From Westiellopsis prolifica IICB1 (GTDB taxonomy: Bacteria; Cyanobacteriota; Cyanobacteriia; Cyanobacteriales; Nostocaceae), in the NCBI RefSeq assembly GCF_004323185.1, contig NZ_NAPS01000002.1:1-36275 (forward strand): a DNA stretch of 36,275 nucleotides, written 5' to 3'. The notes beneath the pieces were generated by a model. It ran no database searches, had not been told where the DNA came from, and worked only from the letters and a program-made list of their open reading frames with translations. Each line of letters opens with the position of its first letter. Position 1 is the first letter of the stretch. Position numbers and translations under genes: made by a program. Positions 6,133 through 28,801 of the stretch are shown in pieces.

Positions 6133-6603
6133 TTATGGATCTAGCGAATATTTCATCGCAATTCTAATTGTTGCATTCTTCTTAAGTGGGAAACTTGAGT
6201 CTTGAAAATTTGGTATACCAGTTCTGACTGATATTGTTGGATTATTGGAAAGACCAAAACCCTCTTGTGGAATACCTAACAAATCTCTGTTGAGTTTGTA
6301 ATCTCCATTTTGATCATCTACTGCGGCGACAGCATAAGTTCCAGGTTTTAATCCATAGAATTCTTTTTTGAGAGAATTTCCCTGAATTTGAACGCAACCA
6401 CTTTGTACTTCACTACTATCACTCAGAGGAAATCCTTGTTCATTATTATAAATTCTCAGGCAAACTTGCCCATTTTGATTACGGATTCCATTGACTACAA
6501 CAGTTAGGTTGATAGTGGAATTTTGATTTGCGGTAGCCAAGCCTAAGATGACAAAATTAGAGACTAAAAACAGATTAAGTAGACTAATTTTTTGTATGAT
6601 CAT
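6133..6603 (-). CDS. DUF2141 family exported protein
   Basis: 156 aa with an N-terminal signal peptide (LLNLFLVSNFVILGLATANQ) and a single DUF2141 beta-sandwich. Family hallmarks are INLTVVVNGIRNQNGQVCL, then YGLKPGTYAVAAVDDQNGD, then YKLNRDLLGIPQEGFG. The two Cys residues (QVCL and SGCV) could form a disulphide in the periplasm. The biochemical role of DUF2141 proteins is not known. It starts 26 bases after the SDR gene and is the last gene before the terminator, so it is probably co-transcribed with the lipid pathway. A part in handling the exported product is only a guess. Confidence 0.85.
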   Translation of the reverse strand: MIIQKISLLNLFLVSNFVILGLATANQNSTINLTVVVNGIRNQNGQVCLRIYNNEQGFPLSDSSEVQSGCVQIQGNSLKKEFYGLKPGTYAVAAVDDQNGDYKLNRDLLGIPQEGFGLSNNPTISVRTGIPNFQDSSFPLKKNATIRIAMKYSLDP

Positions 6604-6629
6604 GCCTGTTTACCGTTTACTGTTACCTC

Positions 6630-7631
6630 TTAAATTAATTGATGAATATCTGTGATTTGCAGCCATTTATGAGTGAGTTGCATTCCTGCTTCAAGGTCAA
6701 TTTTTGCTTCAAAATTTAACATTCTTTGGGCTTTGGAAATAGAATAAGCGTAGGGACGAGAGAGAAAATCCATAGTTTCTGGTAGCAAATCGGGTTTTTT
6801 CCGAAAAAGTTTTTGTCCCTGTTCGCGTATCCGAAGAAATAATTTAGCTTCATCTTTTGATAAAGAAATGGGCACGGGTAAATCTGCTATTTCAGCTAAC
6901 TTGGTAAAATATTCTTTCCAAGAAGTATTCTTCCCATCAGTGATATTAAAAATTTCTCCGTGTGCTTCTTTTTCCATAGCAAGAAAGATGGCATCAATTA
7001 GGTTATCAATGTATAAATGGTTGATAACTCCTTGTCCATCGTTAATCAATGCGAATAATTTTCGCTGCATCATCACTATTGGTCGGACTATCCAGGGAAT
7101 ACTCCCTGGTCCGTAAACATCTCCTGGTCTAATAATGATGATTCCAAAACCTGGTGCAGTTTCCAGTTGTAAAAGTGCTGTTTCGGCTTCTATTTTTGTC
7201 TGACAGAAAGGATTATTTTCACCGCACAGTGGTCCATCTTCGGTAACACCATCGGGATAGTTGAAACCGTAAACCATCGCACTAGAGAGATGAGTGAAGG
7301 TTTTGACACCAGCATTTTTAGCAGCTTTAGCCATATTTACGGTTCCACCCACATTTACATCACGAAAATGCTTGATTTGTCCAGTTTCTTGGACAACACC
7401 AGCCGTATGCAAAACGATGTCTACTCCCTGACAAGCCTTATCAGCAATTGCAGGATCGGTTACACTACCAACTATGACTTCAGCACCTAGTTGTTGGGCT
7501 TTTTTGACTTTTTCTGGGGAACGTCCTAGTCCCCGAACTTTCATCCCTCGCGCCATGGCTAGTTCAGTAGTCCGCAAGCCAATAAAACCACCAATTCCTG
7601 AAATGAGAAGTGTTTGTCCAGAGAGGTTCAT
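6630..7631 (-). CDS. NAD(P)-dependent epimerase/3-beta-HSD-like SDR
   Basis: 333 aa, extended short-chain dehydrogenase fold. The N-terminal nucleotide site is clear (ISGIGGFIGLRTTE; GxxGxxG), followed by DPAIADKACQGVDIVLHTAG and the HLSSAMVYG segment. At the catalytic YxxxK position the sequence is FCQTK: Phe142 replaces Tyr while Lys146 is kept. The C-terminal half (YIDNLIDAIFLAM, EIFNITDG) matches sugar epimerase and sterol-dehydrogenase-like members. It could act on a keto group or sugar of the lipid product, but the missing Tyr makes ordinary SDR catalysis doubtful. It lies 53 bases after the second acyltransferase gene. Confidence 0.85.
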   Translation of the reverse strand: MNLSGQTLLISGIGGFIGLRTTELAMARGMKVRGLGRSPEKVKKAQQLGAEVIVGSVTDPAIADKACQGVDIVLHTAGVVQETGQIKHFRDVNVGGTVNMAKAAKNAGVKTFTHLSSAMVYGFNYPDGVTEDGPLCGENNPFCQTKIEAETALLQLETAPGFGIIIIRPGDVYGPGSIPWIVRPIVMMQRKLFALINDGQGVINHLYIDNLIDAIFLAMEKEAHGEIFNITDGKNTSWKEYFTKLAEIADLPVPISLSKDEAKLFLRIREQGQKLFRKKPDLLPETMDFLSRPYAYSISKAQRMLNFEAKIDLEAGMQLTHKWLQITDIHQLI

Positions 7632-7684
7632 AAGAAAGTCGGTGTAGGGGTGTAGGAGGAATCTGTATTTTCATCAGGACTGTT

Positions 7685-9073
7685 TCATGAATGGCGACGT
7701 TTAGGGACTCGACGAACAATACTCAAAGCAGGATATCGGGGAATTGTAATCATTTGATCAGCAAAAGTGAATTTTTTATTGTTACAAGCTTCAACAATAC
7801 AAGCAAGGACATTATCGGCGAGAATTTCTGCTGTTTCCTGACTAATTGCAGGCTCAGAAAACATGAAATTCAAATACATTTTTTCTTCAAAAGTGAGAAC
7901 CGCAACACATAAACCTCTAAATGCTGCATTAGAAGTAACGAAGCTAATTTCTTCAAGTTCAAATACACCATAATTTGAACGAATATTGACTCTACCTATA
8001 TTTGTGACACCAACTGTTGAAAATACTTGATGAGGGTAAGCGAGAAGAAACTTAATCAACAGCTTGGTTAACAAGGGTAAACAGAAGACGCGATCGCTTT
8101 CTAAAGTTTGTTGCATTTGTTGTCTTCTGTTGCGAGCTAAATTCCAAAAGCGTGTATTTAATTTTAGGGTATGACAGGAAATATCACCGGAAACCAAGAT
8201 ACCTAAATTTTCTTCACTGACTTCTAGTTTGAGTCGATGACGCAAATTGATAGGAGACCAACAGCTAACACTCAAATCTGTTTTTTTACCAGCACCGATT
8301 TTTCTACCTGTTGCAAACAACATTGCTGCACACAAAGCAGCATGTACTGTTGTCCTGTTCTTTCTACAAACATTGATTAATTGTGTGGTTTGTTCCTCGT
8401 CGAGCTTTCTATGAACAATACCAGTACGGCGTGATTCTATGGGTACGAATTTTTCAAAGTTTAAGGTTTTTGGTCGGTATCGAATATCTCTTAATAAAAG
8501 TCTCAATATGCCTAAAAAGATATTTAGCGCACCTTTCCATCCCTGCATTGAGTTTGGTAAGAGTTTTTTAATCGGTGGTAATGCAGGTAAAGTGATAACT
8601 TCTATTGGTTCTAAAGATATGAGTTTTTGGCAATATCTCAAAAAGTCTGAATGCAATTGCATACATGATAAACCGTCTGCGATCGCATGATGTATTGTTG
8701 TGATCACATAATTGACGTTGCTCTCATTTTTCAGACTAACAAAAACAACTCGCATTAAACTTTTGTCACTCTCAATTTTTTGATTGAGTTCTTCTTGAAC
8801 AACTTCTCGCCACTGTTGTGAGTGCAGCAGTGTCACAACACGTAAAGGAATTTGGATGTCTCCAGTTTCAAAGCGTAAATTATTTAATCTACCGATAATC
8901 CGCGATTTCAGACGAGGATGACGCGCCTGTAACAATTCCAGAGCTTGTTTAACAATTTCTTTGCTGAAGATTCCATTAATTCGACAAATCGTAACTATAT
9001 TGTATGTTGTAGCACGACGATTCAAAATCTCCATCGCTTGCTCGTAAGAAGAAAGTTTTCTGTCATAGAGCAT
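7685..9073 (-). CDS. condensation-domain-like acyltransferase (PapA5/WES type), copy 2
   Basis: 462 aa. It has one HHxxxDG active site (HHAIADG, His128-His129 and Asp133) in the fold shared by NRPS condensation domains, PapA5-type diester synthases and alcohol acyltransferases. No carrier or adenylation domain is attached. Later conserved parts are RKNRTTVHAALCAAMLFATG and VTNIGRVNI. The expected reaction is transfer of an acyl chain from ACP or CoA to a hydroxyl. A strong GAAAGG ribosome binding site precedes the ATG at 9073. It is a close paralogue of the gene at 9150-10553 (same motif positions), so the two may acylate two hydroxyls of one product or use different acyl donors. Confidence 0.85.
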   Translation of the reverse strand: MLYDRKLSSYEQAMEILNRRATTYNIVTICRINGIFSKEIVKQALELLQARHPRLKSRIIGRLNNLRFETGDIQIPLRVVTLLHSQQWREVVQEELNQKIESDKSLMRVVFVSLKNESNVNYVITTIHHAIADGLSCMQLHSDFLRYCQKLISLEPIEVITLPALPPIKKLLPNSMQGWKGALNIFLGILRLLLRDIRYRPKTLNFEKFVPIESRRTGIVHRKLDEEQTTQLINVCRKNRTTVHAALCAAMLFATGRKIGAGKKTDLSVSCWSPINLRHRLKLEVSEENLGILVSGDISCHTLKLNTRFWNLARNRRQQMQQTLESDRVFCLPLLTKLLIKFLLAYPHQVFSTVGVTNIGRVNIRSNYGVFELEEISFVTSNAAFRGLCVAVLTFEEKMYLNFMFSEPAISQETAEILADNVLACIVEACNNKKFTFADQMITIPRYPALSIVRRVPKRRHS

Positions 9074-9149
9074 AATTACCTTTCTATTAAAAATTAATTA
9101 AAATTGGATAATCAAAATAATTGGTGTTATGTCCAACTACTTATCGCTA

Positions 9150-10553
9150 TTAATAGCGTCCAGAACCTCGACGAGCAACACTCAAAGCAGTAGGAACAGT
9201 AGAGGGTAAGTGATGCTGAGGAAGTGCAACAATTTGATCGGAAAAAGTAAATTTTGCGTTGTTGCAAGCTTCAATAATACAAGCAAGAACATTATCGGCG
9301 AGAATTTCTGCTGTTTTCTGGCTAATTGCAGGCTCAGAAAACATGAAATTTAAAACCATTTTTTCTTCAAAAGTGAGAACCGCAACACACAAACCCCCAA
9401 ATGCTCCCCATGCAGGAACGAAGCTAATTTCTTCAAGTTTAAACACATCATAATCTGAAGGAATGTTGACTCTACCTATATTTGTGACACCTACTGTTGC
9501 AAACATTTGGCGAGGAAATCTGAGTAGAAAATTGGTTAAAAGCTCAATTAATAAAGCTGAACAAAAGACCCGATTACCTTTTGTACTTGCTTCCATTTGT
9601 TGTCTTCTGTTGCGAGCTAAATCCCAAAAGCTTGTATTAATCTTTAAGGTATGACATGAAATATCGCCGGAAACCAACACACCTAAATGCTCATTACTAA
9701 TTGTTGGATGAAGTCGGTTACGCAAATTGACGCTAGACCAACAGCTAACACCCACATTTGTTTTTTTACCACTATTAATTTTTCTACCAGCTGCAAACAA
9801 CATCGCCGCACACAAAGCAGCATGTACTGTTGTTTTATTCTTTCTACAAACATTGATTAACTGTGTGGTTTGGTCTTCGTTAAGCTTTCTGTGGACAATA
9901 CCACTACAGCGTGATTCAATTGGTACGAATTTTTCAAAGTTTAAGGTTTTTGGTCGGTATCGAATTTCTCTGACCACATGTCTGAATATGCTCAACAAGA
10001 TATTCAGCGCACCTTTCCATCCCTGCATTGAATTTGGTAGAAGTTTTTTCATCGGTGGTAATGCAGGTAAACTGACGACTTCTATTGGTTCTAAAGATAT
10101 GATTTGTTGGCAATATTTTAAAAGTTCTGAATGCAGTTGTATACATGATAAGCCGTCTGCGATCGCATGATGTATTGTTGTAATTAAATAATGAATGTTG
10201 CTGTCATTTTTGAAATGAACCAGGACAACTCGCATTAAACTTTTATCACTCTCAATTTTTTGATTGAGTTCTTCCCAAACAACTTCCTGTGACTGTTGTG
10301 AGTGCAACTTTTCAACTACACGTAAAGGAATTTGGATATTTCCAGTTTCAAAACGCAGACTATCTAGCTTATAGACAATTCGAGAGTTAAGGCGAGGATG
10401 ACGTAGCTGTAGTAATTCTAAAGCTTGTCTGATGGTTTCTTCGTCGAGGAATCCGTTGATTCGACAAATCGTGACTATATTGTAAGCGCTAGCACGACGG
10501 TTCACAATTTCTATAATTTGCTCAAAAGGAGAAAGTTTTCTGTCGTAGAGCAT
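9150..10553 (-). CDS. condensation-domain-like acyltransferase (PapA5/WES type), copy 1
   Basis: 467 aa from the ATG at 10553. The start was chosen because the protein then begins MLYDRKLS exactly like its paralogue and places HHAIADG at the same residues (128-134). The frame is open to an ATG at 10595, five bases from the upstream stop, so a 14-residue extension by translational coupling is possible. It has the same fold and inferred ester-forming role as copy 2. The paralogues differ most at their C-terminal ends and in short loop segments. The order of the two genes directly after the docking-domain gene suggests joint action. Confidence 0.85.
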   Translation of the reverse strand: MLYDRKLSPFEQIIEIVNRRASAYNIVTICRINGFLDEETIRQALELLQLRHPRLNSRIVYKLDSLRFETGNIQIPLRVVEKLHSQQSQEVVWEELNQKIESDKSLMRVVLVHFKNDSNIHYLITTIHHAIADGLSCIQLHSELLKYCQQIISLEPIEVVSLPALPPMKKLLPNSMQGWKGALNILLSIFRHVVREIRYRPKTLNFEKFVPIESRCSGIVHRKLNEDQTTQLINVCRKNKTTVHAALCAAMLFAAGRKINSGKKTNVGVSCWSSVNLRNRLHPTISNEHLGVLVSGDISCHTLKINTSFWDLARNRRQQMEASTKGNRVFCSALLIELLTNFLLRFPRQMFATVGVTNIGRVNIPSDYDVFKLEEISFVPAWGAFGGLCVAVLTFEEKMVLNFMFSEPAISQKTAEILADNVLACIIEACNNAKFTFSDQIVALPQHHLPSTVPTALSVARRGSGRY

Positions 10554-10600
10554 AAGTTGTATGTATTGTATTTCATGTTTTGTACTCAGTCTCATTCAAT

Positions 10601-12472
10601 TTAGCGATCGCTCACTTTTGCTTTCAAAGAAGCAAAATGCTTTCCACCAAGTTCAATTTGATTTTGTTGACACCCAGTTTTCAATCTTTCTACTAGATAT
10701 TCCAAATCATGAGCTATAAAATTTGTGCCATGATCTGGTTCTACCAAACTGACTAAAGCTGTATTTTCTACCTCTTGATTCGCCAAGCTAGAAATACCCA
10801 GAAAATTTAGTACTCCTGATTCATAAGTTCCACAAGGAACTGAAGGGTTGTTTACTCCAACATAATATTCATTTGCTTGAAACCAGTCAGATCCTGGATA
10901 GCCGTGAAAATGAACGATTGGCGCACCATTTTTAATAATTTCTGGTGTATATAAGGCAGCAGATAAACTAATAGCAAGCATGACATAGATATCATAAGAA
11001 GGTTTGATATCTACTAATTCTGGATGAATACCTTCTGGTAATTGCAAAAATAACTTTTCCTTCAAACCAATCCGAATAATATCGCTTTCAAGTTTTAAAT
11101 CTGTTTTGTTTGAGCCGGAACGAGAACTGACAAGCCATATATCTGGAATTTGTTTAAATCTAAATTCTCCTTTAATCTTAGTTTTAATGTAATATCTACC
11201 TTTGTCATTTTGACGAAATTCATCACTACTAAATCCCACAACTGATAATAGATTTTGCCATTCATTTTCAGTTATTTCTGGTTGACCAACATATTGCGGA
11301 GGTTCAGCATAAGCAACAAAACCATAAGAGACACCCGTCCTCCCATTCACGATGACGTTAACAATATCTCTATGAGATTTTCTTTTAATAACTTCGCACA
11401 GTTTAAAGCCTGGTGGAAATAAACCTGTTGATGCTAGTTCATTACCTAATTTTACCAGTTTTGCAGCATAGTTAGATTCATGAGGATTATACTGTCCTAA
11501 AGTAAATCGACTCATTAAAAGTGGATATATTGGTACAAAAACTTTAGGTACTAATGAGTTTAAAATAAAGTGTTCAATCTCATTTTTAGGAAACACAGAA
11601 TCAGAAAGATTCATATTTAAGATGGAGATTTTTTCATGAGATACCCCAATTACCATCTCTGAAAATGTTCTGATGAGAGTGTTTAAGCCAATATTGATTT
11701 TTTCTTGATAAGAAATTAAAGGATTTGTAAAATCTTTATCTATTTCTGTTAAGGTAATTACTTGAGTGTTAGTAGGGTCTTCAATGTATTTTGCTACATG
11801 GTCTTCAGCCCAACTACTCAATTTCGCTATTCTAGAAACAGAAATTTCTCGATTTTTCAAGATCAAACGAGAATACATTTGATACAAACTCTCTGCTGCT
11901 AATATACCCAATTTTTGGATGCAACGAGGAGATTTTCCCACATCAATTACTGCATCTATTTCCGATTTTACACTCCTGAATTTGAAGCTTTTATTTAATT
12001 TAGTTATTGGCAAAGTAATTTCATAGCTTAATTCGGTTGTTGCTTCTTCCCATGGTAAAACTTTTACTCCATAATCCTTAAGTTTTACTGCTAATTCCTC
12101 TTGGAATTTAATCACTTCTAGCTGCTTGTAACCTTTTGGTAATGGTCTAAATGTAATTGTTAGCTTTTGAGCCATAACTTTAGGATCAATCACTGGTGGT
12201 TTATATTCCACACTTGATTCTTCAATAAATCCTCCAATTAAACGACCAATAGTTTGTAAACTCAGTCCAATACTTAAGGGAACAGAAGCAGCTTTGAGAG
12301 CTACATCTCTATCGCGTAGCAAAGTTAAAATTTCGGTTTTATGAGCAGTTAATTCCGCTTGTATTTCTGGTGTCATTACCCCCTTGGGAGAACGAAGATT
12401 TAATTTATTATTGTTCACCCACAAATCAATACCGTTTTGAGTCAGATTTTCTAAAAGTTCATGTACGTTCAT
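10601..12472 (-). CDS. unknown 623-aa protein with N-terminal TubC-type docking domain
   Basis: Residues 1-57 are a clear TubC_N docking domain (MNVHELLENLTQNGIDLWV, SPKGVMTPEIQAELTAHK, EILTLLR), a module otherwise found at the N-termini of NRPS/PKS subunits, where it binds the C-terminus of the preceding subunit. The remaining 560 residues match no family I recognise: a hydrophobic stretch near 63-83 (VPLSIGLSLQTIGRLIGGF), a central alpha/beta-looking region, and a His/Cys-bearing part near 518-549 (PIVHFHGYPGSDWF, NNPSVPCGTYESG). No PKS, NRPS, thioesterase or transferase signature is visible. It sits between the ACP and the acyltransferases, whose first copy starts almost at its stop. It may be an assembly-line accessory enzyme or scaffold. 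Function unknown. Confidence 0.8.
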   Translation of the reverse strand: MNVHELLENLTQNGIDLWVNNNKLNLRSPKGVMTPEIQAELTAHKTEILTLLRDRDVALKAASVPLSIGLSLQTIGRLIGGFIEESSVEYKPPVIDPKVMAQKLTITFRPLPKGYKQLEVIKFQEELAVKLKDYGVKVLPWEEATTELSYEITLPITKLNKSFKFRSVKSEIDAVIDVGKSPRCIQKLGILAAESLYQMYSRLILKNREISVSRIAKLSSWAEDHVAKYIEDPTNTQVITLTEIDKDFTNPLISYQEKINIGLNTLIRTFSEMVIGVSHEKISILNMNLSDSVFPKNEIEHFILNSLVPKVFVPIYPLLMSRFTLGQYNPHESNYAAKLVKLGNELASTGLFPPGFKLCEVIKRKSHRDIVNVIVNGRTGVSYGFVAYAEPPQYVGQPEITENEWQNLLSVVGFSSDEFRQNDKGRYYIKTKIKGEFRFKQIPDIWLVSSRSGSNKTDLKLESDIIRIGLKEKLFLQLPEGIHPELVDIKPSYDIYVMLAISLSAALYTPEIIKNGAPIVHFHGYPGSDWFQANEYYVGVNNPSVPCGTYESGVLNFLGISSLANQEVENTALVSLVEPDHGTNFIAHDLEYLVERLKTGCQQNQIELGGKHFASLKAKVSDR

Positions 12473-12550
12473 AGCTTTTGATCTCTTAATATGCTAGTGT
12501 TTATGCAATTTTAAAAACAATTTTTCTAGATAAATACAGTTAGCTAAAAA

Positions 12551-12620
12551 TGAAATTGACCTATCATTCCGAGCAGGGTACAAGCCCACCCCCAATTTCG
12601 GGGAATGTGGGTCAATTCCA
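12551..12620. repeat. 70-bp foldback repeat inside the biosynthetic block
   Basis: Nested inverted arms: TGAAATTGACC (12551-12561) pairs with GGTCAATTCCA (12610-12620) with one mismatch, and CCCAC/CCCC pair with GGGG/GTGGG around AATTTC. It also contains ATTCCGAGCAGGGTACAAG (12566-12584), found in reverse orientation at 35933-35951, so it belongs to a dispersed family. It lies in the 195-bp gap between the ACP and the docking-domain gene and could lower read-through there. Confidence 0.65.
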
Positions 12621-12667
12621 TTTTCCAAAATCCCAAATCGAAGGACTTTCCAAAGGGTAAGTTATCT

Positions 12668-12955
12668 TCAAATCTCAAATGATTCAGAATCTACAAATTC
12701 TTCTGCTAAACGCTTGCTTAAGGCTTCAATAGTGGGATAATGCCACAACAGAATTAGAGATATTTTAAATCCAAACAATTTCTCTGCTCTACTAACAATT
12801 ACCATCCCTTGTGCTGAATCTAAGCCGTAACTATCTAAAGGTTCTCGGATATCTATTTCATCTGGTTCAACTCCTAGCATCTCAGAAATATTAGAGACTA
12901 ACCAGGCTTGTATTTCTTCTGCTGTATGAGACTGTTTAGCAATAGATTGACTCAT
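12668..12955 (-). CDS. free-standing acyl carrier protein
   Basis: 95 aa, one carrier domain. The phosphopantetheine site is Ser47 in [11 protein letters not shown]. Flanking helices are typical ([20 protein letters not shown], then [19 protein letters not shown], then [12 protein letters not shown]). A GAGG ribosome binding site precedes the ATG. Its place beside DarB/DarA-like genes fits a DarC-type carrier. It could feed a beta-ketoacyl chain to the DarB-like enzyme, or an acyl chain to the acyltransferases. No dedicated acyl-AMP ligase or phosphopantetheinyl transferase is seen in the window. Confidence 0.9.
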
Positions 12956-13160: not shown

Positions 13161-14195
13161 TTATTTTTCGGGAGGAATCTCATACAAGAATGGTCTGATA
13201 TTTTCAGGCTTAGAGTAATATTGCATATTTCTCAAGCTCATCAAACAACGGAAATAACCTGTTACTACTGCATATGGCTGTTCATGCTTCGTAGTTTCAA
13301 AAATATCAGGAAGATATCGGTGAGATAGATACGGATATCGATGATGTACTTGCTGATAATTAATATGTCCCCACAGCCAATTCATCAAAGGGTTAGTTAG
13401 AATCACCCAACTGTCAACTTGTAATAGATCACCTTGAAGGTTCTGATACTCATCTTCCCTGTCTGCTTCCCGTTCAAGGCTTTTGTGAACAGCAGGTGAA
13501 ACGGCGGGTGCAAAAGCATAATGATCGCACAAAGCACGGAAAGAATATGCAATTGGTGCTAACAGAAAAGTAGGAATGACTGTATACCATGGGGAAATTT
13601 TTACCATTGGCAGAATATAAAAATAGAAAGCTACAGCCAAACTTACAAAGCCAACATCTTTTACACCTCGAAATATCTTATTCCATTTACCTGAAAATAA
13701 AGCGATTGTTACTATTTTGTAGTGTTCATAAAGAGCGATTAATCCTCCCAAAGTAAATGCATACCAAAAGGGATGGTTATGCAATTTTTCCTCAGGATCT
13801 AGACCAGGTTGATGTGTGTAACGATGATGGGTCAAATGAAACTTTCGATTAGCATAAAAAGGGAGCAGCACGACTAAAGCAGAGAGTATTCCGCCCCAAA
13901 GATCATTCCAAAACTTGCTTTTGAATAATACTCCATGGATACCTTCGTGTGCCAATACACCTATACCTGTTAATAACAAGCTATTAAAAACTACGAAAAT
14001 CGTAATAAATGCCCACTTCACAACCAAATGTGTTGGATGAGGATGAGCAAAGAAGTAGGTATCAATGGCGGTAACACCTATCTGCGCTAAAGTAAAAGAA
14101 CTGACTAGCAAGCTAATGAAAAAAACTGATTTGAACAGATTTTCTGCCTGAGGAATTACCTGTTCAGCTGGTTTAGGAATTTTAAAGTCTTTCAC
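13161..14195 (-). CDS. membrane fatty acid desaturase family di-iron enzyme
   Basis: 344 aa with several membrane helices (about 22-40, 60-82, 100-115, 180-215). Three histidine boxes are intact: HEGIH (83-87), HLTHH (120-124) and QQVHH (281-285), with further His residues at 128 and 277. It should use O2 and ferredoxin or cytochrome b5-type electrons to desaturate or hydroxylate a lipid chain. The start is GTG, with AAGGAA eight bases upstream; no better ATG exists near. Placed between DarB-like and ACP genes, it probably modifies a chain bound to ACP or the finished lipid. A hydroxylase role cannot be excluded. Confidence 0.87.
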   Translation of the reverse strand: MKDFKIPKPAEQVIPQAENLFKSVFFISLLVSSFTLAQIGVTAIDTYFFAHPHPTHLVVKWAFITIFVVFNSLLLTGIGVLAHEGIHGVLFKSKFWNDLWGGILSALVVLLPFYANRKFHLTHHRYTHQPGLDPEEKLHNHPFWYAFTLGGLIALYEHYKIVTIALFSGKWNKIFRGVKDVGFVSLAVAFYFYILPMVKISPWYTVIPTFLLAPIAYSFRALCDHYAFAPAVSPAVHKSLEREADREDEYQNLQGDLLQVDSWVILTNPLMNWLWGHINYQQVHHRYPYLSHRYLPDIFETTKHEQPYAVVTGYFRCLMSLRNMQYYSKPENIRPFLYEIPPEK

Positions 14196-15520: not shown

Positions 15521-15595
15521 AATTTCCTCCAATTAGACTGACAATACTCAAAAAATTACAGTAACTTTTGTGAGGTTTTCAGTTAGCCTTAAGTT

Positions 15596-16513: not shown

Positions 16514-16598
16514 GACCACAACTTCTTTGATGGTACAAGCCCCCGGATCAATTCTGGGTGTCAATCCAAAATCTAAAATTGTTTGACTTTGGTAATTT

Positions 16599-21300: not shown

Positions 21301-21563
21301 GCTAATTTTAAATCAGACAAATCTATTTCAAAATCTTTAATGTACGCTCCTAAAGGTGGAAAGTTGGTATCAAAATCATTGTTTTTTAGCAAATGTTCTT
21401 GAGTTTTAATTTCTTGCCATCGTTGAGAAGGAAAAGTAGTAAAGTGTTGATTTAATTCATAAATGCTGCGTTCCAAAGCATCTAATCCTTGACAACCACC
21501 TAAAAAACAATCCATACCAACAATGGCTAGCTGAGGATCTTTAATCTGTTCATATTTTTCCAT
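18366..21563 (-). CDS. PfaB-like subunit: inactive ketosynthase (CLF-like) plus acyltransferase
   Basis: 1065 aa. Residues about 10-420 follow a ketosynthase from LAIVGMDCFLGG to GSVKANVGHTYAASG, but the catalytic residues are lost: at the Cys position the sequence is LVAEQHSIFKALE (Glu159 region), and the EAHGTGT His is replaced (EVFASGVPQQD). Only the second His, in NVGHTYA, remains. This fits a chain-length-factor-like or scaffolding role. Residues about 530-860 form an acyltransferase with GYSLGE (Ser633), preceded by VAFVYPGAYSSYLG, as in PfaB. The last about 200 residues are low-complexity and end in a helical segment (MINFRNQLYQNLIENTSRL, then HSNFLEVRQESLLQ) that may bind the synthase linker. 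It starts 92 bases after the large synthase stop. Confidence 0.85.
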   Translation of the reverse strand: MEKYEQIKDPQLAIVGMDCFLGGCQGLDALERSIYELNQHFTTFPSQRWQEIKTQEHLLKNNDFDTNFPPLGAYIKDFEIDLSDLKLASEEDKLKPQELLMLKVADNAIKDVKLSKGSRVAVIIVAATELSLRILKPEAKDTISNLWNFAGPLFTLVAEQHSIFKALEVAKKLLAMGEVDAVVIGAVELAENSLSLLVQNQTAKSNTGVNTLSYDQNVNGWMLGEGAAAVVLKLHTTAQQDHDCIYAVVDALNILKPNSSSYTIPDSKAVTQVCQLAFDLAGIKPKDIGYLEVFASGVPQQDESEMLGLIGAYRTSEADLCCAIGSVKANVGHTYAASGIVSLIKTALCLYHRYIPGVPQWSAPKMAHIWRDSPFYVAPESKPWFLEKGATKRIAAINSMEIDGSYAHLILSEEATQIQRSSRYLEQMPFYLFALAADDCSALLEQIHTLQQTIANSSSLSAAASLTFRTFQQRQNATYALAILGRNQQELTREIQRALKGVGDAFNTGKEWQTPVGSYFTPKPLGNKGNVAFVYPGAYSSYLGIARNLFRLFPKIYEDPIIKSVYTRVNNIEKILYPRSLRKLSTRQLETLEQQFIDDPVAMLESEVGIAGLLTAVLRNYFQLRPQCAFGYSLGETSMMLSQGIWTNFHEGSEDLSSSALFKTQLSGPKNAVRKYWELPQIHDGKGEEFWSTYVLMCPVSRVREVLKHEEHVYLSIINTPEEVAIAGDTKVCQRVIKTLNCDAFRAPFNHVIHCDPIRSEYDALLKLNTLPTQNIPNTVFYSAAEYKPITLNSDSIGHNIAKMLVQQLDFPRLIQRVWEDGARIFIEVGAGSNCSRWISGNLRQKEHIIVSLNKRGIDEHSCIVKALAKLLSHRVKIDLSSLYSQVKENTKKSRQKLKKITWNSNDLNITRLNDRDKKIFQDTFSTLPISGHEKQQSKLLDFKEFERLDHYYKQNSGKIFEFAEKSQNFNFNTRLHENSQSLSVSSSNTHSYEEQEQMINFRNQLYQNLIENTSRLTKTHSNFLEVRQESLLQISAIIQLQLDCLQHIFKAKSSVLEDEWKMSK

Positions 21564-21655
21564 TACTTCATCTCTGGTTATGTATATTTTGGAGAAAAAT
21601 TAGGAGTGGGAGGAGACAAGGTAGAATAAATACTACTTGTCATTTATTGAACCTT

Positions 21656-24600
21656 CTAATCCGGAAATATTTTATGCAAAAGAATTCCCTTTGCTCCAAT
21701 CATGCGATTATATATTTTCCCTTGATTATCATGTGTAATCACATCAGCAGTCACAAATGATTCTGTTTTTGATTTTATTTCACAAGAAACATAAAAAGAT
21801 TTATCAAATGGTATAGGTACGAACTGTTCAAAAGTTTTAATTTCTGATGGTAAACAACCTTGTTTATGAAAATATTGAGTCCAGAGCCAAAGTGCATGAA
21901 CCTGAACATCTGCAATATAGGGATTAAAAGTTTTTACAGGAAATTGTCCTTGTTTTTTTTCCTCAACATTTGACAAAGCACATTCTATAGTTATTTTTTC
22001 GGGCCTAGCATTTAAGATAGTTTTTACACCCTGAAAACAAGCTCCATGAAATAAGCTCGATGCCCCGTTTTGATAAAATGATTGACTAGAATTGAAAATT
22101 ATTTCTTCCTGTGTTAAATTCAGCGAATCATAATGAGGAGAAACAGGAATTTGCTGCTTAATATTTATCTGGCTGCTGAAATGATAACGAATTTTACCTT
22201 CTAGATTCTTACTCCATATTTTAGCATCAAAGTATATCTCATCAACATCGTTTTTAGAAATTTCTTGCAAATCTAAAATGTATTCAGTTGGCTGAGTTTC
22301 ATCAAAAATAATTCCTTTCAAAACTTTGAAGTTTGAGCAAGTAAATGATTTATAACCAGGATAGAGTTGTTCACAGGAATTAGCTATCCACGTGAGAGCG
22401 CAAGTAGCAGGTAAAACTGGACGACCAGCAATGACATGATCTTGTAAAAATGGATTAGCTGCTAAGATTAATCGGCGCTCGATACGATATTGTTTCAGAT
22501 CTGGGTTAGACGACTGGGGTATGTACACTAAGGGACTACCTATTACTACTTGGGTAGTTTGTTGATTTACTGGTGCTAGTTCATCAACTAACATTTGACT
22601 TCCAATTTCTATAGGAATAGCCTCTATACCCCTTTCGGCAAAAGCTTTTTTCAATTCTGGTGTTACCATGCCACTATCCCAAGGTCCCCAATTAATCGCA
22701 ACGACATGACAATTTGGATAGTTGCGTTTAACAAGATGAGCGGACTTGTTGAGAATTTCATTCGCAATTGCATAATCTGACTGACCAATATTCCCGTAAA
22801 AACCTGCTACCGAGGAAAACAAGACTAAATAATTGAGTTGGCTAGGTGGCACACAACGCAGCAGGTTTTCTAGACCTGCAACTTTGGCAGTATAAACAAT
22901 TTCAAAGTCCCGTTCTGATTTATTTTCAATCCGCTTATCTGCTAGATTACCAGCTCCGTGAATAATTCCCGTGACTGCACCCAAACGCTCAACTGCTGTA
23001 GCAACTTGCTCTTGGAGTTGTGTTGCATCGGTGATATCCACGCTCAGATATTCCGCTTGTCCACCAGCTTCCTCAATTGCTCGCAGGGTTGCTTGAATTT
23101 CTCGTCTAGATGAAATAGCCTTGTACTTTTTCTGCACCATTAGAGGTGTAGGCTTTTCTCCTCTGGCGATAAAATCGTCCATAATCCGCTTTTTCAATTC
23201 CCCTTCAGTCGAACAGCCTTCAGCCCATACAGGTTCAGGCTCTACAGGCGAACGACCCAGCAAAATGAATTTGCATTGATAACGCTGCGCCAACTGGATC
23301 ACACATTGAGCGGTGATTCCTTTTGCACCACCACTAACCAGAAAAACTTGAGATTGGGAAGAAGACACGGTCAGTGGAAGACGCGATGACCCAGAGAGTA
23401 TTTCATCTGTATTCCCCTCGTCTCCCTTGTCTCCATGTCCCCGTGTCTTTGGCTTGCATACTAACGTTGTTCGTCCTTGTGAGCTATATCCAACTTCAGC
23501 AATTAACCGATTGGGATCATGAAGTTCGTTAAGGATATACCGTACTGATGTTTGAGTATCTATATCAGGACTCAGATCAATTGCACGGCAAAATACAGCT
23601 TCCCATTCCTGATTCAGGGTTTTGGTTAATCCAAATAATCCGCTACTGATGACACCAAAGTTGGTTTTGCAGCCTAGTCCAAACTGACCATCAAGACGAG
23701 CTATGGTAACAAAGCAACTGCGTCCTTGAGATGCTGCTTGATTGAGTGATGCTTTGAGGTGTTTGGCGATGAGAAAAACGTGACGCAGGAGTGCTTTCTC
23801 GGTTTCCAAGTAACGGACGTGATTACTTAGATCATCATGGCTATCGGGATTGAGATGGATAAAAGCAGCAATTTGACCATACTGAGAAGCGATCGCTTCT
23901 AACTGATTTTGCAAATGCTCCTCGCTCAAATTTGCTAGCACAACTCGATTAATTCCTTCTGGTAAAGGTAATTGATCTGCAATTAAAGTTTTAGGAAAAC
24001 TCAATACAACTACTTTCCAGTCACGCTGCAAAAGAGCTAGAGCTAATTCTGAAGTCGTGGGGGTGCCATCATCAGTAAGCAAAGCAATATGCTTCTCAGG
24101 TAAGGAAAAATCCAATATATCTGGTTCAGGAAGGAATTTGAGATGAACTGAACTGCGGAGAATATTATGATTGACTTCAGATTGCTGGTTGTAAGGCTCG
24201 GCTAGAAGTGTTTTTTTTTCCAGCACATTAGCCTGTTGTGTCATATAGTCAACGATTTGACCAAGGGTACGTAATTCTCCCAGTTCTTCAGGATTGGGCT
24301 TAGGCAAATCTGGGCATAACTCCAGTAGTCCTCCCAAAATCTCAACTCGTTTAATGGAATCAATACCTAAATCCGCCTCCATATCCATTGATAGCTCCAA
24401 CATCTCAACTGGATAGCCCGTCTTGTCACTGACTACATTTAGCAGAATTTGACTGAGGTCAGTGAAATCAAGGGATGGAACAGAGGAAGTTGATTCTTCT
24501 GAATTAGCAAGAGTAACGGGAACTACGGAGGAAGAAGTTATCTGTAGATCTTCACTCTCCGTGTGCGTCACCGCCTCACTCTCCTGATTCAAAGCAACTT

Positions 24601-27600
24601 CTTGTGCTGTCTTTGCAGGTGCAGATTCAACATTAGTATTTCCTGGGATCAGACTCCGCAAATATTCTACGATTTGACCAAGACTACGTCGTTTTTCTAG
24701 TTCTTCGAGATTGGGTTTGGACAAATCCGGGTACAATTCCAGTAATGCTCCGAGAATTTCAACTCTTTTAACGGGATCGATTCCCAAGTCCACTTCTATA
24801 TCCATCGACAGTTCCAGCATTTCTACCGGATAGCTCGTCTTTTCACTAACTATCTTTAGTAGAGTCTGAATGAAGCTGGATTCATCAATGGTTATAGGTA
24901 ATGACGGTACATATGAAGATGGAATGACAAGAGTATCACAGGTAGTTATGGAAACTGGTTTGGTGTCATGACTAGTGCTATTGTAAGTACCATTACTTAC
25001 ACCATTGCTAGTACCATTACTTACACCATTGCTAGCACCATTACCCCCACCATGGCTGACACCATTGGTTGTGCCATTGATTAAAACAGGCTCAAAATTA
25101 GTTATAAAGCTGTGAGTGGGTACAGTAACAGATGCGGTAGTTCTACCATTAACTGCGATTGGAGCAGCAGAAGTCTGTTCATCGCTAAATACAGCAGGCT
25201 GTTTCATGTTTATGGTAGCAAGCAGCTGACTGTAATGCTGCTGGAGCAATTGGAAATACTTTTTGGTATGTTCTGTTTGATCGTTTAGATATTGCTCGTG
25301 GACGCGCAGTGTCTCACCATGATGTTCGTGAAAGCGCATAATGCTGCGCTCAGAGTAGGAGAGGGCTATTTGTTTTGTTTCCGCATCTTGATGAGGAAAT
25401 TTATCATTTACCAGCAAAGAATTCTGTTGCTGCATCAGTTGGAAAAAGGTTTTGGTATATTCCGTTTGATGCTTTAAAGATTGTTCATGAACACGCAAGG
25501 TATCACGTTGATTACGATTGAATTCTATCAGGCTGTATTCTAAACTATCTAAAAGTAGTTGATAATTTTCAGTCACTTCTGAACTTGTTTGCATTTGTGT
25601 TTTAGGATTTGCTTGAGGATATTTCTTCAGATCAGAAGGTTTTTCTGGTTGATTACCGTTTGCAACTGGTGTGGACAGGCTACGGTGTGTATTATCAGGT
25701 TGGGAGATGGGTGTCTGATCTATCTTTTGAGTCGGGGGAGTAGATAGGGTATTTACCTCACAAGAGTTATCTTTTGTATGTGGGAGACTAACTTTATGCC
25801 CGTTTTGCAAAGCTTTTTCAAAAGCCTGTTTTCTTTTTTCTGAGACGTAGTTAGAACCATTTAGCTGGACAATCAGCTGCTTATTGTGTTTGACTTCTGG
25901 TGTTTTCTGCTCAAGTTGATAGGAATCAGGGTTTTTTAAAGATAAGCCAGCGACACGTAACTGTATAACAGCTTCTCGAAAATAGCGATCGCTATCTTTT
26001 TGATAACTACCATTCAAAGCCACAGCTAAATGAGGTTGATCACGCAGGATATCTTTCACTAAGTTGGTCAGAATGCCTTTAGGGCCAAACTCTATAAAAC
26101 AATACCCACCTTGAGCGTAAATATTTTCAATCTCTTGCTTAAAATGTACCTGATTAATCAGGTGTTGTTTGAGAATTTTTTGAATCGCTTGTGGTTCTTT
26201 CGGGTAACATTCTCCTGTCACATTAGTGTACACAGGGATTCTTGGCTCGTTGAAATGAACTCCCTCAATTGCTTGGGCAAAAGGTTTTTGAGCATGAGCT
26301 ACCAATGGTGTATGAAAAGCTGCTGAAACAGGTAGCAAAACGGTAGAAAAAGCTTTAGCTTTCAGTTGTTCCTGTACTTGGGTGATCTCAGCTTTCGCCC
26401 CTGCCAAAACTACTTGAGTTGAAGAATTCAAGTTAGCAATGGTCACTAGAGGAAAATTCTTAATAATTTCTTCAACTTGACTGACATCACCTTTAACTGC
26501 TAGCATGGCTCCTGCATCAAACTGAGGATCGTTTGGTGCAGACATAGCTTGACCCCTAGCTTTAACCAGGAAAAAGTAATCTTGCTCATTGAGAACACCA
26601 GCAGCCCACAGAGCTGTCAATTCTCCAAAGCTGTGTCCGACAAGAAAATCTGGCTTGAATCCTCCCTGTTGTAATAGCTTATACAGACCAACGCTGAAAG
26701 CTCCAATTGCTGCTTGTGCATATTCTGTCTTTTGCAATGCTTCAACCTGTGACTGCTTTTGAGCTTGATCAAAAACAGGTGGAGGGAAAACTATTTCAGA
26801 AACCGGTTTGAGACCATCTTTGCAGAAAAGGTTATCTATCTCGCTATAGGTCTGTCGCAAGCAAGGAAAGTTGATGACAAGTTCTCGACCCATTTCCAGG
26901 TATTGAGAACCTTGACCAGAAAACAAAGCAACTACTTTGCTTTCAGTTGGCAAACTCGTTTTGCGGTAATAAATTCCTTGGGGATGCTCCCAAGATTCCG
27001 CGTGTGAATTATTAGTGAGCAAGTCAATACTGATCTGCAATAATTTGCAAGCTTCAGTCAAAGATTCGGCGACAAATCCAACTCTCGCATTTGTGACAGG
27101 AATTTCTGATGATTGACACGTCGCAATTAGTTGTGAATAATGCTGTTCTTTTTCTGAGGATTGCAACTGATCCAAAATTTCTTGACAGCGTGATTTTAAC
27201 TGCTCAGGTGTTGATGCAAATAAGAGTACTGATTGGGGGGTATTATGTAAACGATAAGGGCGATCGTGTTCACCAGAGTACTCTTCTAAGACTATGTGGT
27301 AATTTGTGCCACCAAAACCAAAGGAACTCACTCCTGCACGTCTTGGTAGTTCTCCTTGAGAGCGCATCCAAGGCCTAGTTTTTGTATTCAAATACAAGGG
27401 CGAGTTTTCAAGACCTAGTTTAGGATGTGGTTGAGTGATGTTGATGGTTGCTGGCAATACTTTGTGGTGTAGAGCTAACGCTGTTTTGATCAGGCTTGCA
27501 GCACCCGCAGCAGCTTTTGCATGTCCAATCTGTGATTTAACACTTCCAAGTGCAATATGTTGTGTTCGGGAATTGTTTTTGCTAAAAACTTCTTTGAGAG

Positions 27601-28801
27601 CTGTAAATTCAGCGGGATCTCCAACCATAGTACCTGTACCGTGTGCTTCAATCAAACCAACACTGGTAGGTGAAAATCCTGCATCTTCATAAGCATGATG
27701 CAAAGCTCTGACTTGACCTTCTGGACGAGGTGCATAAATGCTTTTATAGCGACCATCACTAGAAGCACCAATACCTTTGATCACTGCATAGATCCGGTCA
27801 TTATCCCTAATCGCGTCTTCCAGTCGTTTTAACACCAACATGCCAATACCTTCAGCCAGCATCATGCCATCCGATTGAGCATCAAAAGGCTTGGTGTTCT
27901 GGCTTGGGGAAACAGCAGGTGTTTTGCTGAAACACATATAGGCAACAATTGAGTTGTCAGTGTCAACTCCACCAGTGAGCATCATGTCGGCTCGATGATC
28001 GACTAGTTCACTGATTGACATTGCTAATGCTCCTAATGAACTCGCACAAGCAGCATCGACTACACAGTTCATTCCTCCTAAATCTAAGCGATTAGCAATT
28101 CGCCCAGAAACTATGTTTGCTAACATACCGGGAAAAGCGTTCTCTTCCCATGGTACATATGCACTTTTGATTTTCTCGATAATTTTTTGCGTATCTTCGT
28201 CAGATAAGCCACTACTTTGTAAGACTTTTTCCCATATGGGATACTCTAATCTAGTAGCCAATGGCATTGCTAATTGTCTTGCTAGGGCTACACCCAAAAT
28301 TACCCCAGTACGCTCTCGGTTAAATTGTTTTGTTTCCCCATAACCTGCATCTTCGATAGCTGCTTTTGCAACAACTAAACCTAGCAACTGAGAAACATCT
28401 GTGACTTCCAAAAGATTTGGAGGAAGTCCAAATTCCATTGGATTGAATTCGATTTCGGGGATGAACCCACCACGTTTGCAGTAAGTTTTATCAGGGGCTT
28501 TGGGGTTAGGATCGTAGTAATCATCAATATTCCAGCGCGATGGAGGAACATCGGTAATACAATCAACTTGGCGAATAATTTTTTCCCAATATTCCTGTAA
28601 ATTTTTAGATTGCGGGAAAATAGAAGCCATTCCAATAATAGCAACAGGATTTTGTTGCAATTTTTTATTGATATTATGAGTTGGCGTTGCATTTGCAGAC
28701 ATCATTTTTTTTACCTTTATCAATTTGTGCAAAGCTTGTTCACAATTGCTAACTTCTTTTTGTAATTGTGCAAAGTCAACTTCAATTCTAGAAGCAGCCA
28801 T
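21656..28801 (-). CDS. PfaA/HglE-like iterative polyketide synthase, KS-AT-ACP-ACP-KR-DH
   Basis: 2381 aa. KS about 51-480: Cys252 in DAACASS, His in EAHGTGT and in GSVKSQIGHAKA. AT about 635-930: FSGQGSQYLEMG and Ser724 in GHSFGE. Linker about 990-1280 has two copies of a 43-residue helical repeat and an Asn-Gly-Ser run. ACP1 near 1343 reads LGIDPVKR, with Pro in place of the pantetheine Ser. ACP2 has intact Ser1482 in LGIDSIKR. KR about 1815-2060: SGGAKGI, and Tyr2010 in SDYAIAN. C-terminal hot-dog dehydratase: His2122 in HVIAGRPVLP and Asp2298 in DVQVH. The order resembles PUFA synthase PfaA and heterocyst glycolipid synthases. It is the first gene of the block. No TE or reductase release domain is present. 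Confidence 0.92.
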   Translation of the reverse strand: MAASRIEVDFAQLQKEVSNCEQALHKLIKVKKMMSANATPTHNINKKLQQNPVAIIGMASIFPQSKNLQEYWEKIIRQVDCITDVPPSRWNIDDYYDPNPKAPDKTYCKRGGFIPEIEFNPMEFGLPPNLLEVTDVSQLLGLVVAKAAIEDAGYGETKQFNRERTGVILGVALARQLAMPLATRLEYPIWEKVLQSSGLSDEDTQKIIEKIKSAYVPWEENAFPGMLANIVSGRIANRLDLGGMNCVVDAACASSLGALAMSISELVDHRADMMLTGGVDTDNSIVAYMCFSKTPAVSPSQNTKPFDAQSDGMMLAEGIGMLVLKRLEDAIRDNDRIYAVIKGIGASSDGRYKSIYAPRPEGQVRALHHAYEDAGFSPTSVGLIEAHGTGTMVGDPAEFTALKEVFSKNNSRTQHIALGSVKSQIGHAKAAAGAASLIKTALALHHKVLPATINITQPHPKLGLENSPLYLNTKTRPWMRSQGELPRRAGVSSFGFGGTNYHIVLEEYSGEHDRPYRLHNTPQSVLLFASTPEQLKSRCQEILDQLQSSEKEQHYSQLIATCQSSEIPVTNARVGFVAESLTEACKLLQISIDLLTNNSHAESWEHPQGIYYRKTSLPTESKVVALFSGQGSQYLEMGRELVINFPCLRQTYSEIDNLFCKDGLKPVSEIVFPPPVFDQAQKQSQVEALQKTEYAQAAIGAFSVGLYKLLQQGGFKPDFLVGHSFGELTALWAAGVLNEQDYFFLVKARGQAMSAPNDPQFDAGAMLAVKGDVSQVEEIIKNFPLVTIANLNSSTQVVLAGAKAEITQVQEQLKAKAFSTVLLPVSAAFHTPLVAHAQKPFAQAIEGVHFNEPRIPVYTNVTGECYPKEPQAIQKILKQHLINQVHFKQEIENIYAQGGYCFIEFGPKGILTNLVKDILRDQPHLAVALNGSYQKDSDRYFREAVIQLRVAGLSLKNPDSYQLEQKTPEVKHNKQLIVQLNGSNYVSEKRKQAFEKALQNGHKVSLPHTKDNSCEVNTLSTPPTQKIDQTPISQPDNTHRSLSTPVANGNQPEKPSDLKKYPQANPKTQMQTSSEVTENYQLLLDSLEYSLIEFNRNQRDTLRVHEQSLKHQTEYTKTFFQLMQQQNSLLVNDKFPHQDAETKQIALSYSERSIMRFHEHHGETLRVHEQYLNDQTEHTKKYFQLLQQHYSQLLATINMKQPAVFSDEQTSAAPIAVNGRTTASVTVPTHSFITNFEPVLINGTTNGVSHGGGNGASNGVSNGTSNGVSNGTYNSTSHDTKPVSITTCDTLVIPSSYVPSLPITIDESSFIQTLLKIVSEKTSYPVEMLELSMDIEVDLGIDPVKRVEILGALLELYPDLSKPNLEELEKRRSLGQIVEYLRSLIPGNTNVESAPAKTAQEVALNQESEAVTHTESEDLQITSSSVVPVTLANSEESTSSVPSLDFTDLSQILLNVVSDKTGYPVEMLELSMDMEADLGIDSIKRVEILGGLLELCPDLPKPNPEELGELRTLGQIVDYMTQQANVLEKKTLLAEPYNQQSEVNHNILRSSVHLKFLPEPDILDFSLPEKHIALLTDDGTPTTSELALALLQRDWKVVVLSFPKTLIADQLPLPEGINRVVLANLSEEHLQNQLEAIASQYGQIAAFIHLNPDSHDDLSNHVRYLETEKALLRHVFLIAKHLKASLNQAASQGRSCFVTIARLDGQFGLGCKTNFGVISSGLFGLTKTLNQEWEAVFCRAIDLSPDIDTQTSVRYILNELHDPNRLIAEVGYSSQGRTTLVCKPKTRGHGDKGDEGNTDEILSGSSRLPLTVSSSQSQVFLVSGGAKGITAQCVIQLAQRYQCKFILLGRSPVEPEPVWAEGCSTEGELKKRIMDDFIARGEKPTPLMVQKKYKAISSRREIQATLRAIEEAGGQAEYLSVDITDATQLQEQVATAVERLGAVTGIIHGAGNLADKRIENKSERDFEIVYTAKVAGLENLLRCVPPSQLNYLVLFSSVAGFYGNIGQSDYAIANEILNKSAHLVKRNYPNCHVVAINWGPWDSGMVTPELKKAFAERGIEAIPIEIGSQMLVDELAPVNQQTTQVVIGSPLVYIPQSSNPDLKQYRIERRLILAANPFLQDHVIAGRPVLPATCALTWIANSCEQLYPGYKSFTCSNFKVLKGIIFDETQPTEYILDLQEISKNDVDEIYFDAKIWSKNLEGKIRYHFSSQINIKQQIPVSPHYDSLNLTQEEIIFNSSQSFYQNGASSLFHGACFQGVKTILNARPEKITIECALSNVEEKKQGQFPVKTFNPYIADVQVHALWLWTQYFHKQGCLPSEIKTFEQFVPIPFDKSFYVSCEIKSKTESFVTADVITHDNQGKIYNRMIGAKGILLHKIFPD
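23414..23448. repeat. 9-bp tandem repeat inside the synthase gene
   Basis: On the coding strand the units read GGGGACATG, GAGACAAGG, GAGACGAGG, the same family as the intergenic repeat at 3597-3632. The 9-bp unit keeps the frame and encodes GHGDKGDEG (about residues 1786-1796) in the linker before the KR domain. Confidence 0.75.
24965..25075. repeat. Asn-Gly-Ser tandem repeat in the synthase linker
   Basis: A 12/24-bp period repeat on the coding strand encodes repeated NGVSNGTS units (about residues 1243-1276) between the helical linker and ACP1. It looks like a flexible, length-variable tether and is prone to slippage. Confidence 0.75.

Follow-up and report, generated by a model that had tools for sequence, protein, structure and literature searches.

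Gene content and order of the locus

The window analyzed here, a 36,275-nucleotide stretch of Westiellopsis prolifica IICB1 (contig NZ_NAPS01000002.1, positions 1 to 36,275), is part of a 2.65-Mb contig in a 7.3-Mb genome, and the strain belongs to the same genus grouping as Pelatocladus HA4357-MV3 and Fischerella PCC 9431. It carries twelve genes at 6133-28801, all on the minus strand and separated by gaps of 5-205 bases. Our preferred reading, with a probability of about 60%, is that they combine a dialkylresorcinol module with an hgl-like island, whose synthase is paralogous to that of heterocyst glycolipids, and that this synthase feeds DarB and DarA to give an acylated, exported long-chain dialkylresorcinol. 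A previous sequence-only reading of this DNA had described a co-directional block of PfaA-, PfaB- and PfaD-like genes, DarA- and DarB-like genes, a free acyl carrier protein (ACP), a desaturase and two acyltransferases, and this block is real. Its outer coordinates also stood, but that range left out a conserved DevB-DevC-DevA exporter at 30988-34180, which lies with two small conserved open reading frames (ORFs) on the divergent side, 5' of the block. The exporter belongs to the conserved unit. The features are listed below, the block first and in its 5' to 3' order; KS, AT, KR and DH stand for ketosynthase, acyltransferase, ketoreductase and dehydratase domains, SDR for short-chain dehydrogenase/reductase, and aa for amino acids.

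21656-28801, minus strand: PfaA/HglE-like synthase, 2381 aa, KS-AT-ACP-ACP-KR-DH (domain and family profiles, active-site residues)
18366-21563, minus strand: PfaB/HglC-like protein, 1065 aa, with a KS-fold domain that has no catalytic Cys, followed by an intact AT (GYSLG, Ser633)
16599-18248, minus strand: PfaD-like trans enoyl reductase, 549 aa (TIGR02814, 665 bits, cut-off 449)
15596-16564, minus strand: DarA-like aromatase, flavodoxin/WrbA fold with C-terminal helices in the model
14369-15532, minus strand: DarB, StlD/DarB-family cyclizing ketosynthase (NF005293; Cys130, His307, Asn342)
13161-14195, minus strand: membrane fatty-acid-desaturase family protein with three His boxes, in the slot of CylK-CylC-type genes in relatives
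12668-12955, minus strand: discrete ACP (Ser47)
10601-12472, minus strand: 623-aa protein, N-terminal TubC/beta-hairpin docking domain and conserved remainder
9150-10595, minus strand: PapA-like O-acyltransferase 1 (HHxxxD)
7685-9073, minus strand: PapA-like O-acyltransferase 2 (HHxxxD)
6630-7631, minus strand: NAD-dependent SDR/epimerase-family protein
6133-6603, minus strand: small DUF2141 protein, conserved at the 3' end of the cluster
29349-29666, minus strand: conserved ORF of about 105 aa, 5' of pfaA, no family match above cut-off
30430-30744, plus strand: conserved 104-aa ORF between devB and pfaA, no family match
30988-32193, plus strand: DevB-type membrane fusion protein (TIGR02971, 359.7 bits, cut-off 129)
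32287-33459, plus strand: DevC permease (TIGR01185, 457.4 bits, cut-off 290.35)
33485-34180, plus strand: DevA ATPase (TIGR02982, 369.8 bits, cut-off 295.8)

Just past the 3' end of the cluster, at 4716-5770, there is a two-ORF transposase (HTH_32 and DDE_3).

The chain builder is related to heterocyst glycolipid synthases

The PfaA-like protein scored 2198 bits against TIGR02813 (cut-off 1010), and the PfaB-like protein 159.7 bits against its family model, TIGR02816 (cut-off 144.3). The active-site residues of the former are kept in the KS (Cys252, with a complete triad), AT (Ser724), KR (Tyr2010) and DH (His2122). The domain order had been correctly called from the sequence, but the two ACPs are not both functional: the phosphopantetheine-bearing serine of ACP1 is replaced by Pro1343, and only Ser1482 of ACP2 is intact. 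Alanine occupies this position in the three further genomes read from the genus; thus, the serine is lost, as Pro or Ala, in four genomes of the window's genus, and the surrounding motif is retained. It is kept in all seven other relatives with a readable site, and also in the HglE-like protein encoded elsewhere in the same genome. No gene of the PfaC type (KS, chain-length factor and FabA-like DH) was found among the 15 genes scanned in the window unit, and the nine genomes with a contiguous arrangement (see below) contain no extra large ORF inside the block. Classification as a PUFA (polyunsaturated fatty acid) synthase, PfaABCD, was rejected because there is no PfaC; the PfaA-, PfaB- and PfaD-like genes of the original proposal remain, within a builder of Hgl type that has one active KS.

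Another contig of the same genome carries an hgl-type cluster paralogous to the window synthase. Identities to the window proteins are 57% for the HglE-like protein, 59% for a KR-DH piece, 49-50% for the PfaB-like part, which is spread over two overlapping ORFs, 73% for PfaD (G000:C1:1852825), 58% for the SDR, and 51-60% for DevB and DevC. The PfaB-like part of that cluster has an extra KS with the Cys present, and the cluster also encodes a 502-aa HglB-type ACP-reductase with PP-binding and NAD_binding_4 domains (239 bits). Neither an HglB-type ACP-reductase fusion nor a glycosyltransferase, the HglT of canonical hgl clusters, was detected among the 15 scanned genes of the window unit. The SDR at 6630-7631 reached 49 bits against NAD_binding_4 (cut-off 20.1), matched Epimerase far better (112.8), and missed the NCBIfam model Thioester-redct (41.4, cut-off 213). 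Since the window has no counterpart of the HglB-like ACP-reductase, chain release must differ from that of the paralogous cluster. Judged from its sequence, the window synthase is of Hgl type and not a full PUFA synthase; it has only one active KS and lacks a release enzyme like HglB.

The mapping of the Dev and Pfa names onto the hgd and hgl names is in part our assumption, in which DevB/DevC are taken as the equivalent of hgdBC and the PfaD-like protein as HglA. With these equivalences, DevB/DevC and HglE-F-G-like, HglC-like and HglA/PfaD-like homologues occur together in the window, as in hgl-like islands. Such islands contain homologues of hgdCB and hglEAFGCA in five ORFs, and their product is left unassigned in the available text of a 2025 survey (PMC11804610).

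DarB and DarA belong to the families of dialkylresorcinol enzymes

The window DarB scored 578.8 bits against the StlD/DarB model NF005293 (cut-off 450) and 445 bits against StlD structures, and its Cys130, His307 and Asn342, which we take to be the catalytic residues, align with the StlD triad. The sequence-only reading had placed this protein among the KASIII (3-ketoacyl-ACP synthase III) enzymes of the DarB type, and phylogenetic analysis bears this out. The tree contained 54 rows chosen by hand, and its root rests on a lone KASIII from the same genome, on a very long branch; of the five other KASIII proteins of this genome, the remaining four were too unlike to enter. The 14 DarBs from the Nostocaceae family formed one group (SH-aLRT 99), sister to the two brt-type, i.e., bartoloside, DarBs (99), while a different cyanobacterial DarB class was separate (100), and the window DarB was far from the own-genome KASIII.

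The DarA-like protein has no match at E ≤ 0.01 in Pfam and NCBIfam. It is 49% identical to the brt-type DarA and 39-43% to proteins of four non-cyanobacterial loci (L036, L020, L073 and L056); for five other DarAs, from Bacteroidota or Pseudoalteromonas, the range is 33-39%. Chitinophaga DarAs, of which two were compared, share 33-35%. Its structural model (mean pLDDT 84) matches flavin mononucleotide-binding flavodoxins and WrbA, the best PDB match being 3edo (E 2.5e-6); matches of the model to receptors are most likely helix matches or crystals of flavodoxin fusions. A DarA homologue adjoins DarB in all 14 genomes of the DarB clade. The earlier placement of this flavodoxin-like protein in the DarA group therefore agrees with both its identities and its modeled fold, and it is predicted to be a DarA-type aromatase with a flavodoxin fold.

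Distribution of the combined cluster

DarB was searched for in 388 genomes of the order (E ≤ 1e-50), 217 of the family, and 386 of the phylum (E ≤ 1e-100). Within the phylum sample only three genomes had it, the window and the two with brt-type loci. The family search returned 16 genomes, and 14 of them belong to the clade, with identities of 76-100%. In the order sample, 41 genomes encode a DarB-like protein, 4 at no less than 61% identity and 37 at 38-47% in longer frames. These 37 represent a second cyanobacterial StlD/DarB class with open frames of 439-669 aa; in the one member scanned (L091:2-2628, G091), a haem-oxygenase-like domain (PF14518) is part of the same protein, and the next gene encodes a DUF6999 protein. 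DarA was absent from the three loci of this class that were read (L091, G481 and G482).

The expected co-occurrence of PfaA/PfaD-like with DarA/DarB-like genes was borne out. In 9 of the 14 genomes of the clade, pfaA, pfaB, pfaD, darA and darB are contiguous and co-directional (the window, G505, G506, G507, G413, G414, G350, G429, and G430), with pfaA split in two ORFs in G429 and with pfa and dar genes 69-95% identical to those of the window across these nine. Two more, G417 and G390, have all five genes with others interposed, and G438 has only PfaA-like pieces, on the opposite strand. At L144 (G438:C118) and L011:4179-5978, DarA/DarB have an ACP, a KS-like gene and an AMP-binding ligase (PF00501) as neighbors, and neither PfaB nor PfaD was present in the stretch read, a hint that the DarAB module can take its chains from different sources. 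G417 has a KASIII of chalcone/stilbene-synthase fold between the Pfa genes and darA (L140:12709-13833), weakly DpgA-like (127 bits, under the cut-off of 425), and this suggests an extra ring-making step there.

Exchange of darB and the variable slot behind it

The window DarB and the one of Chlorogloeopsis PCC 6912 (G413) share 91% identity, and the other cluster genes of the two share 70-90%; to the congeners G506 and G507, the values are only 77% and 83% for DarB but 84-95% for the other genes. A tree of PfaB, PfaD and the 623-aa protein united the four genus members with support of 100/100, and the DarB data rejected a clade of these four (log-likelihood difference 124; p-AU, approximately unbiased test, 3e-86). 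The break point lies near the start of darB. On this sequence evidence, lineages have exchanged darB, whereas the backbone genes group by genus. The DarBs of the genus that includes G413 and G414 (g20) were also split in the tree, and their union was not rejected (p-AU 0.105). G505 has the window-type darB with CylK and CylC after it, so darB and the tailoring genes have not always traveled together.

The sequence-only reading had missed that most relatives carry CylK- and CylC-type genes. They lie directly after darB in 9 of the 14 genomes, and 4 of these 9 also have a flavin halogenase-like gene with a WxWxIP motif. The slot is occupied by the desaturase in the window, G414 and G434, by a 30-residue desaturase remnant in Chlorogloeopsis PCC 6912, and by neither type in the region read of G438; none of the 14 has both in the stretch read. 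Between darB and the gene for the 623-aa protein of the window, no remnant of CylK, CylC or flavin halogenase was found at E ≤ 1, and the desaturase has no PDB relative at E ≤ 1. The G505 homologue matched solved CylK with 541 bits. Arg105 and Tyr473, numbered by alignment offset to that structure, are kept in 9 of 9 relatives, and in CylK they activate the alkyl chloride (PMC8916777). CylK relatives occur in 50 of the 217 family genomes; the nine with at least 69% identity are the nine linked to darB, and 41 are more distant. The CylC-type proteins have conserved ExxH motifs, and a search against PDB gave chance matches only (E 0.9). CylK acts on resorcinols and BrtB on dialkylresorcinol (PMC8916777, PMC7081238), and for this reason the presence of CylK/CylC beside darB fits a resorcinol lipid. 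In the genome of the window, no CylK-like match reached E ≤ 1e-80, and the one CylC-like gene lies away from the block, on G000:C12. There, at G000:C12:230000-262000 (L164 and L165), BLAST showed a cluster with the CylC-like gene, an ACP, a PapA-like gene and pieces resembling polyketide synthase (PKS), and ORFs resembling a P450 and an acyl-AMP ligase were noted by eye or as weak matches.

The 623-aa docking-domain protein

The docking domain of the 623-aa protein is certain from structure and profile searches, and the part beyond it has no Pfam family match. Relatives occur in 110 of the 217 family genomes. Conserved motifs are HxH, NPSVPCGT and EPDHGTN, with HxH and a later His-Gly invariant in 25 sequences. 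Foldseek with the AlphaFold model (mean pLDDT 73.5) gave no match at E ≤ 0.001; besides the docking domain, it returned class II aldolase/epimerase structures (2irp and 1jdi, E 0.018, TM-score 0.49 by target). A class II aldolase identity is not supported: profile comparison with 16 Aldolase_II sequences was null for the whole protein and for its C-terminal part, neither the PDB profile search nor Pfam detected an aldolase, and the resemblance was kept as a lead only. Eleven neighborhoods of the protein were picked by hand. Seven are Pfa/Hgl-like clusters without DarA/DarB in the stretch read, three combine a modular PKS with a CylK-like gene, resembling the nostochloroside (ngl) cluster, and one, in G438, is a contig with KASIII, SDR, ACP and DevBCA. 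The protein is an unnamed partner of Hgl-like and ngl-like synthases.

Proposed pathway and alternatives

The sequences show which genes are present, in what order and how conserved, to which families they belong, which catalytic residues they keep, and that darB was exchanged; for the pathway proposed here, chain hand-over, ring product, tailoring order, acylation and export are what we infer from them. The PfaA/PfaB/PfaD-like synthase would assemble a long acyl chain on ACP2, its only functional internal ACP, and pass a beta-ketoacyl or enoyl thioester to DarB, directly or via the discrete ACP. A Michael addition and a Claisen closure, both by DarB, would then couple this chain with another acyl thioester, and DarA would oxidize the resulting cyclohexanedione to a 2,5-dialkylresorcinol. 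In the window, the desaturase could modify one chain, perhaps at the stage when the discrete ACP carries it; in most relatives, chlorination by the CylC-type and alkyl-halide substitution by the CylK-type protein would take this place. The PapA-like enzymes are expected to acylate a hydroxyl, and DevBCA to export the lipid. That the synthase supplies the ring chains rather than an ester acyl group is presumptive. The pathway as a whole is favored by the families and residues of the proteins, the sister position of the brt-type DarBs, the DarA fold, the joint occurrence of pfaABD and darAB (contiguous in 9 of 14 and complete in 2 more), the similarity to the hgl-type cluster of the same genome and to the seven Pfa/Hgl-like clusters without DarA/DarB, the CylK/CylC-type genes after darB in most relatives, and the exchange of darB.

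Several findings weigh against this reading. The window DarB falls below the cut-off of the strict resorcinol_DarB model NF053539 (516 vs. 550). Among six controls, four also missed it, including the brt-type DarB of Synechocystis salina (505), and the two Chitinophaga proteins passed; hence, this cut-off does not set the window DarB apart. At the position of CylK Asp440, a residue linked to aromatic activation (PMC8916777), all nine relatives have Glu, and so does the brt-type BrtB. The name CylC-type is based on 48-52% identity to the brt-type gene in the position of BrtJ, and matches to AurF are under the cut-off. Moreover, the synthase has a PapA-like neighbor in six of the seven Pfa/Hgl-like clusters without DarA/DarB, so it might feed PapA and not DarB; in G420 and G434, the 20 kb read contains DarA and DarB but no pfa genes, and a DarB of this clade can therefore probably draw on other chain sources.

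The last two observations favor the main rival, which is live although we hold it less likely. Here, DarA and DarB would use primary fatty acid thioesters, the Hgl-type synthase would make a separate long acyl group, and PapA would esterify the resorcinol with it, so that the pathways converge at esterification and not at ring formation. The chains of bartolosides, which derive from fatty acid derivatives according to the accessible text of PMC7081238, point the same way. However, darA-darB directly follows pfaD in 9 of 14 genomes, in the slot that holds papA or an ACP gene in six of the seven DarAB-free clusters, and the window block contains no other chain-loading enzyme, e.g., an acyl-AMP ligase. 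Much less probable are two unrelated lipid pathways that are neighbors with nothing but promoter and exporter in common. antiSMASH lists 'hglE-KS' and 'Resorcinol' separately in Chlorogloeopsis (PMC11392904, as far as available), so software detects the parts, but order and strand are kept over nine genomes at 69-95% identity, and darA starts 34 bases from pfaD in the window. We consider it most improbable that this KASIII makes another ring or a linear head-to-head product that the flavodoxin-like protein reduces: the NF053539 result and a StlD/DarB family wider than resorcinol makers, as suggested by the long-frame class with no DarA in the loci read, would allow it, but a DarA homologue stands beside DarB throughout the clade, and the nearest DarBs are of the brt type, whose pathway leads to a dialkylresorcinol.

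Taken together, the reading of the synthase as a feeder of DarB and DarA is preferred, and the cluster points to an undescribed candidate family of phenolic lipids that would be exported and, depending on the species, finished in different ways. Of the initial interpretation, the DarB and DarA assignments held; the PUFA type did not, and the exporter and the CylK/CylC genes of relatives had escaped it. A wider proposal, somewhat short of even odds, is that in part of the true-branching and related cyanobacteria hgl-like islands produce long-chain dialkylresorcinols for export; the synthase would feed DarB directly, and a darB and tailoring cassette exchanged between strains (desaturase, or CylK/CylC with or without flavin halogenase) would give desaturated, chlorinated or CylK-cross-linked, cyclophane- or polymer-like, envelope lipids. 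The swapped darB region is a natural experiment on the way in which one lipid backbone receives different endings.

Comparison with known systems

The bartoloside (brt) cluster of Synechocystis salina shares with the window the DarA/DarB homologues, the nearest DarB clade and a DevBCA-like exporter, and shares CylK/CylC-type genes with most relatives of the window, whereas the window cluster itself has no CylC/CylK. The brt-type locus used (L014, strain LEGE 00031) was linked to brt through matches of the published brtB primers, the forward exact and the reverse with two mismatches; in the 21 kb read it has no Pfa/Hgl synthase, and a gene in the glycosyltransferase position is present. The window was not classified as a bartoloside cluster, as its block has neither a BrtB/BrtJ-type gene nor a glycosyltransferase. 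Flexirubin and dialkylresorcinol clusters of Chitinophaga and others also have the DarA/DarB pair, but their DarB is 53-55% identical to that of the window, and they have no Pfa-type synthase. The aryl polyene of flexirubin is made by type II enzymes. In flexirubin, the dialkylresorcinol is esterified with an aryl polyene acid (PMC3992019, available part). The ngl cluster of Nostoc punctiforme is likewise a cyanobacterial PKS lipid cluster with CylC/CylK, but it combines a PKS carrying a fatty acyl-AMP ligase with a sugar head group and no resorcinol, according to the accessible text (PMC10849952); the three ngl-like loci seen here have the docking-domain protein in common with the window.

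Hgl-like islands resemble the window in their DevB/DevC homologues and their HglEAFG-like, HglC-like and PfaD-like proteins, but DarA/DarB are not mentioned in the section on islands of the 2025 survey, nor resorcinol in its main text (PMC11804610). The window offers a candidate product class for at least some of these islands, left open in that source. Among the matches listed by titles and abstract openings in a mostly open-access literature, no Pfa/Hgl-type synthase with DarA/DarB was described. A CylC survey counts eight 'dialkylresorcinol' clusters, Nostocales included, and Fischerella and Chlorogloeopsis are absent from its main text (PMC8406957); some of the present loci may be among the eight (Fig. 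S8). A genome-mining paper on Subsection V does not mention resorcinol or glycolipid in its available text (PMC4558948). The available text of a 2022 CylK survey has no DarA/B-like enzymes with CylK beyond bartolosides (PMC8916777), and clusters of CylK- and CylC-type genes with DarA/DarB now extend beyond them.

The closest precedent of the proposed pathway is that of the phenolic lipids of Azotobacter, where a type III PKS forms the head group out of malonyl units and a single long chain. The ars pathway of Azotobacter vinelandii also places resorcinol-type head-group enzymes beside a PUFA-synthase-like type I synthase, as described in the accessible parts of PMC13291983 and PMC3098273. The remark in the sequence-only reading that it knew of no described pathway with this combination holds, among the matches listed, for Pfa/Hgl with DarA/DarB, but not for a PUFA-type synthase with a resorcinol-forming enzyme. 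Unlike ars, the window has a StlD/DarB-type KASIII and DarA that would join two chains, and it would represent a second way, besides Azotobacter, of joining a PUFA/Hgl-type synthase to a resorcinol-forming step.

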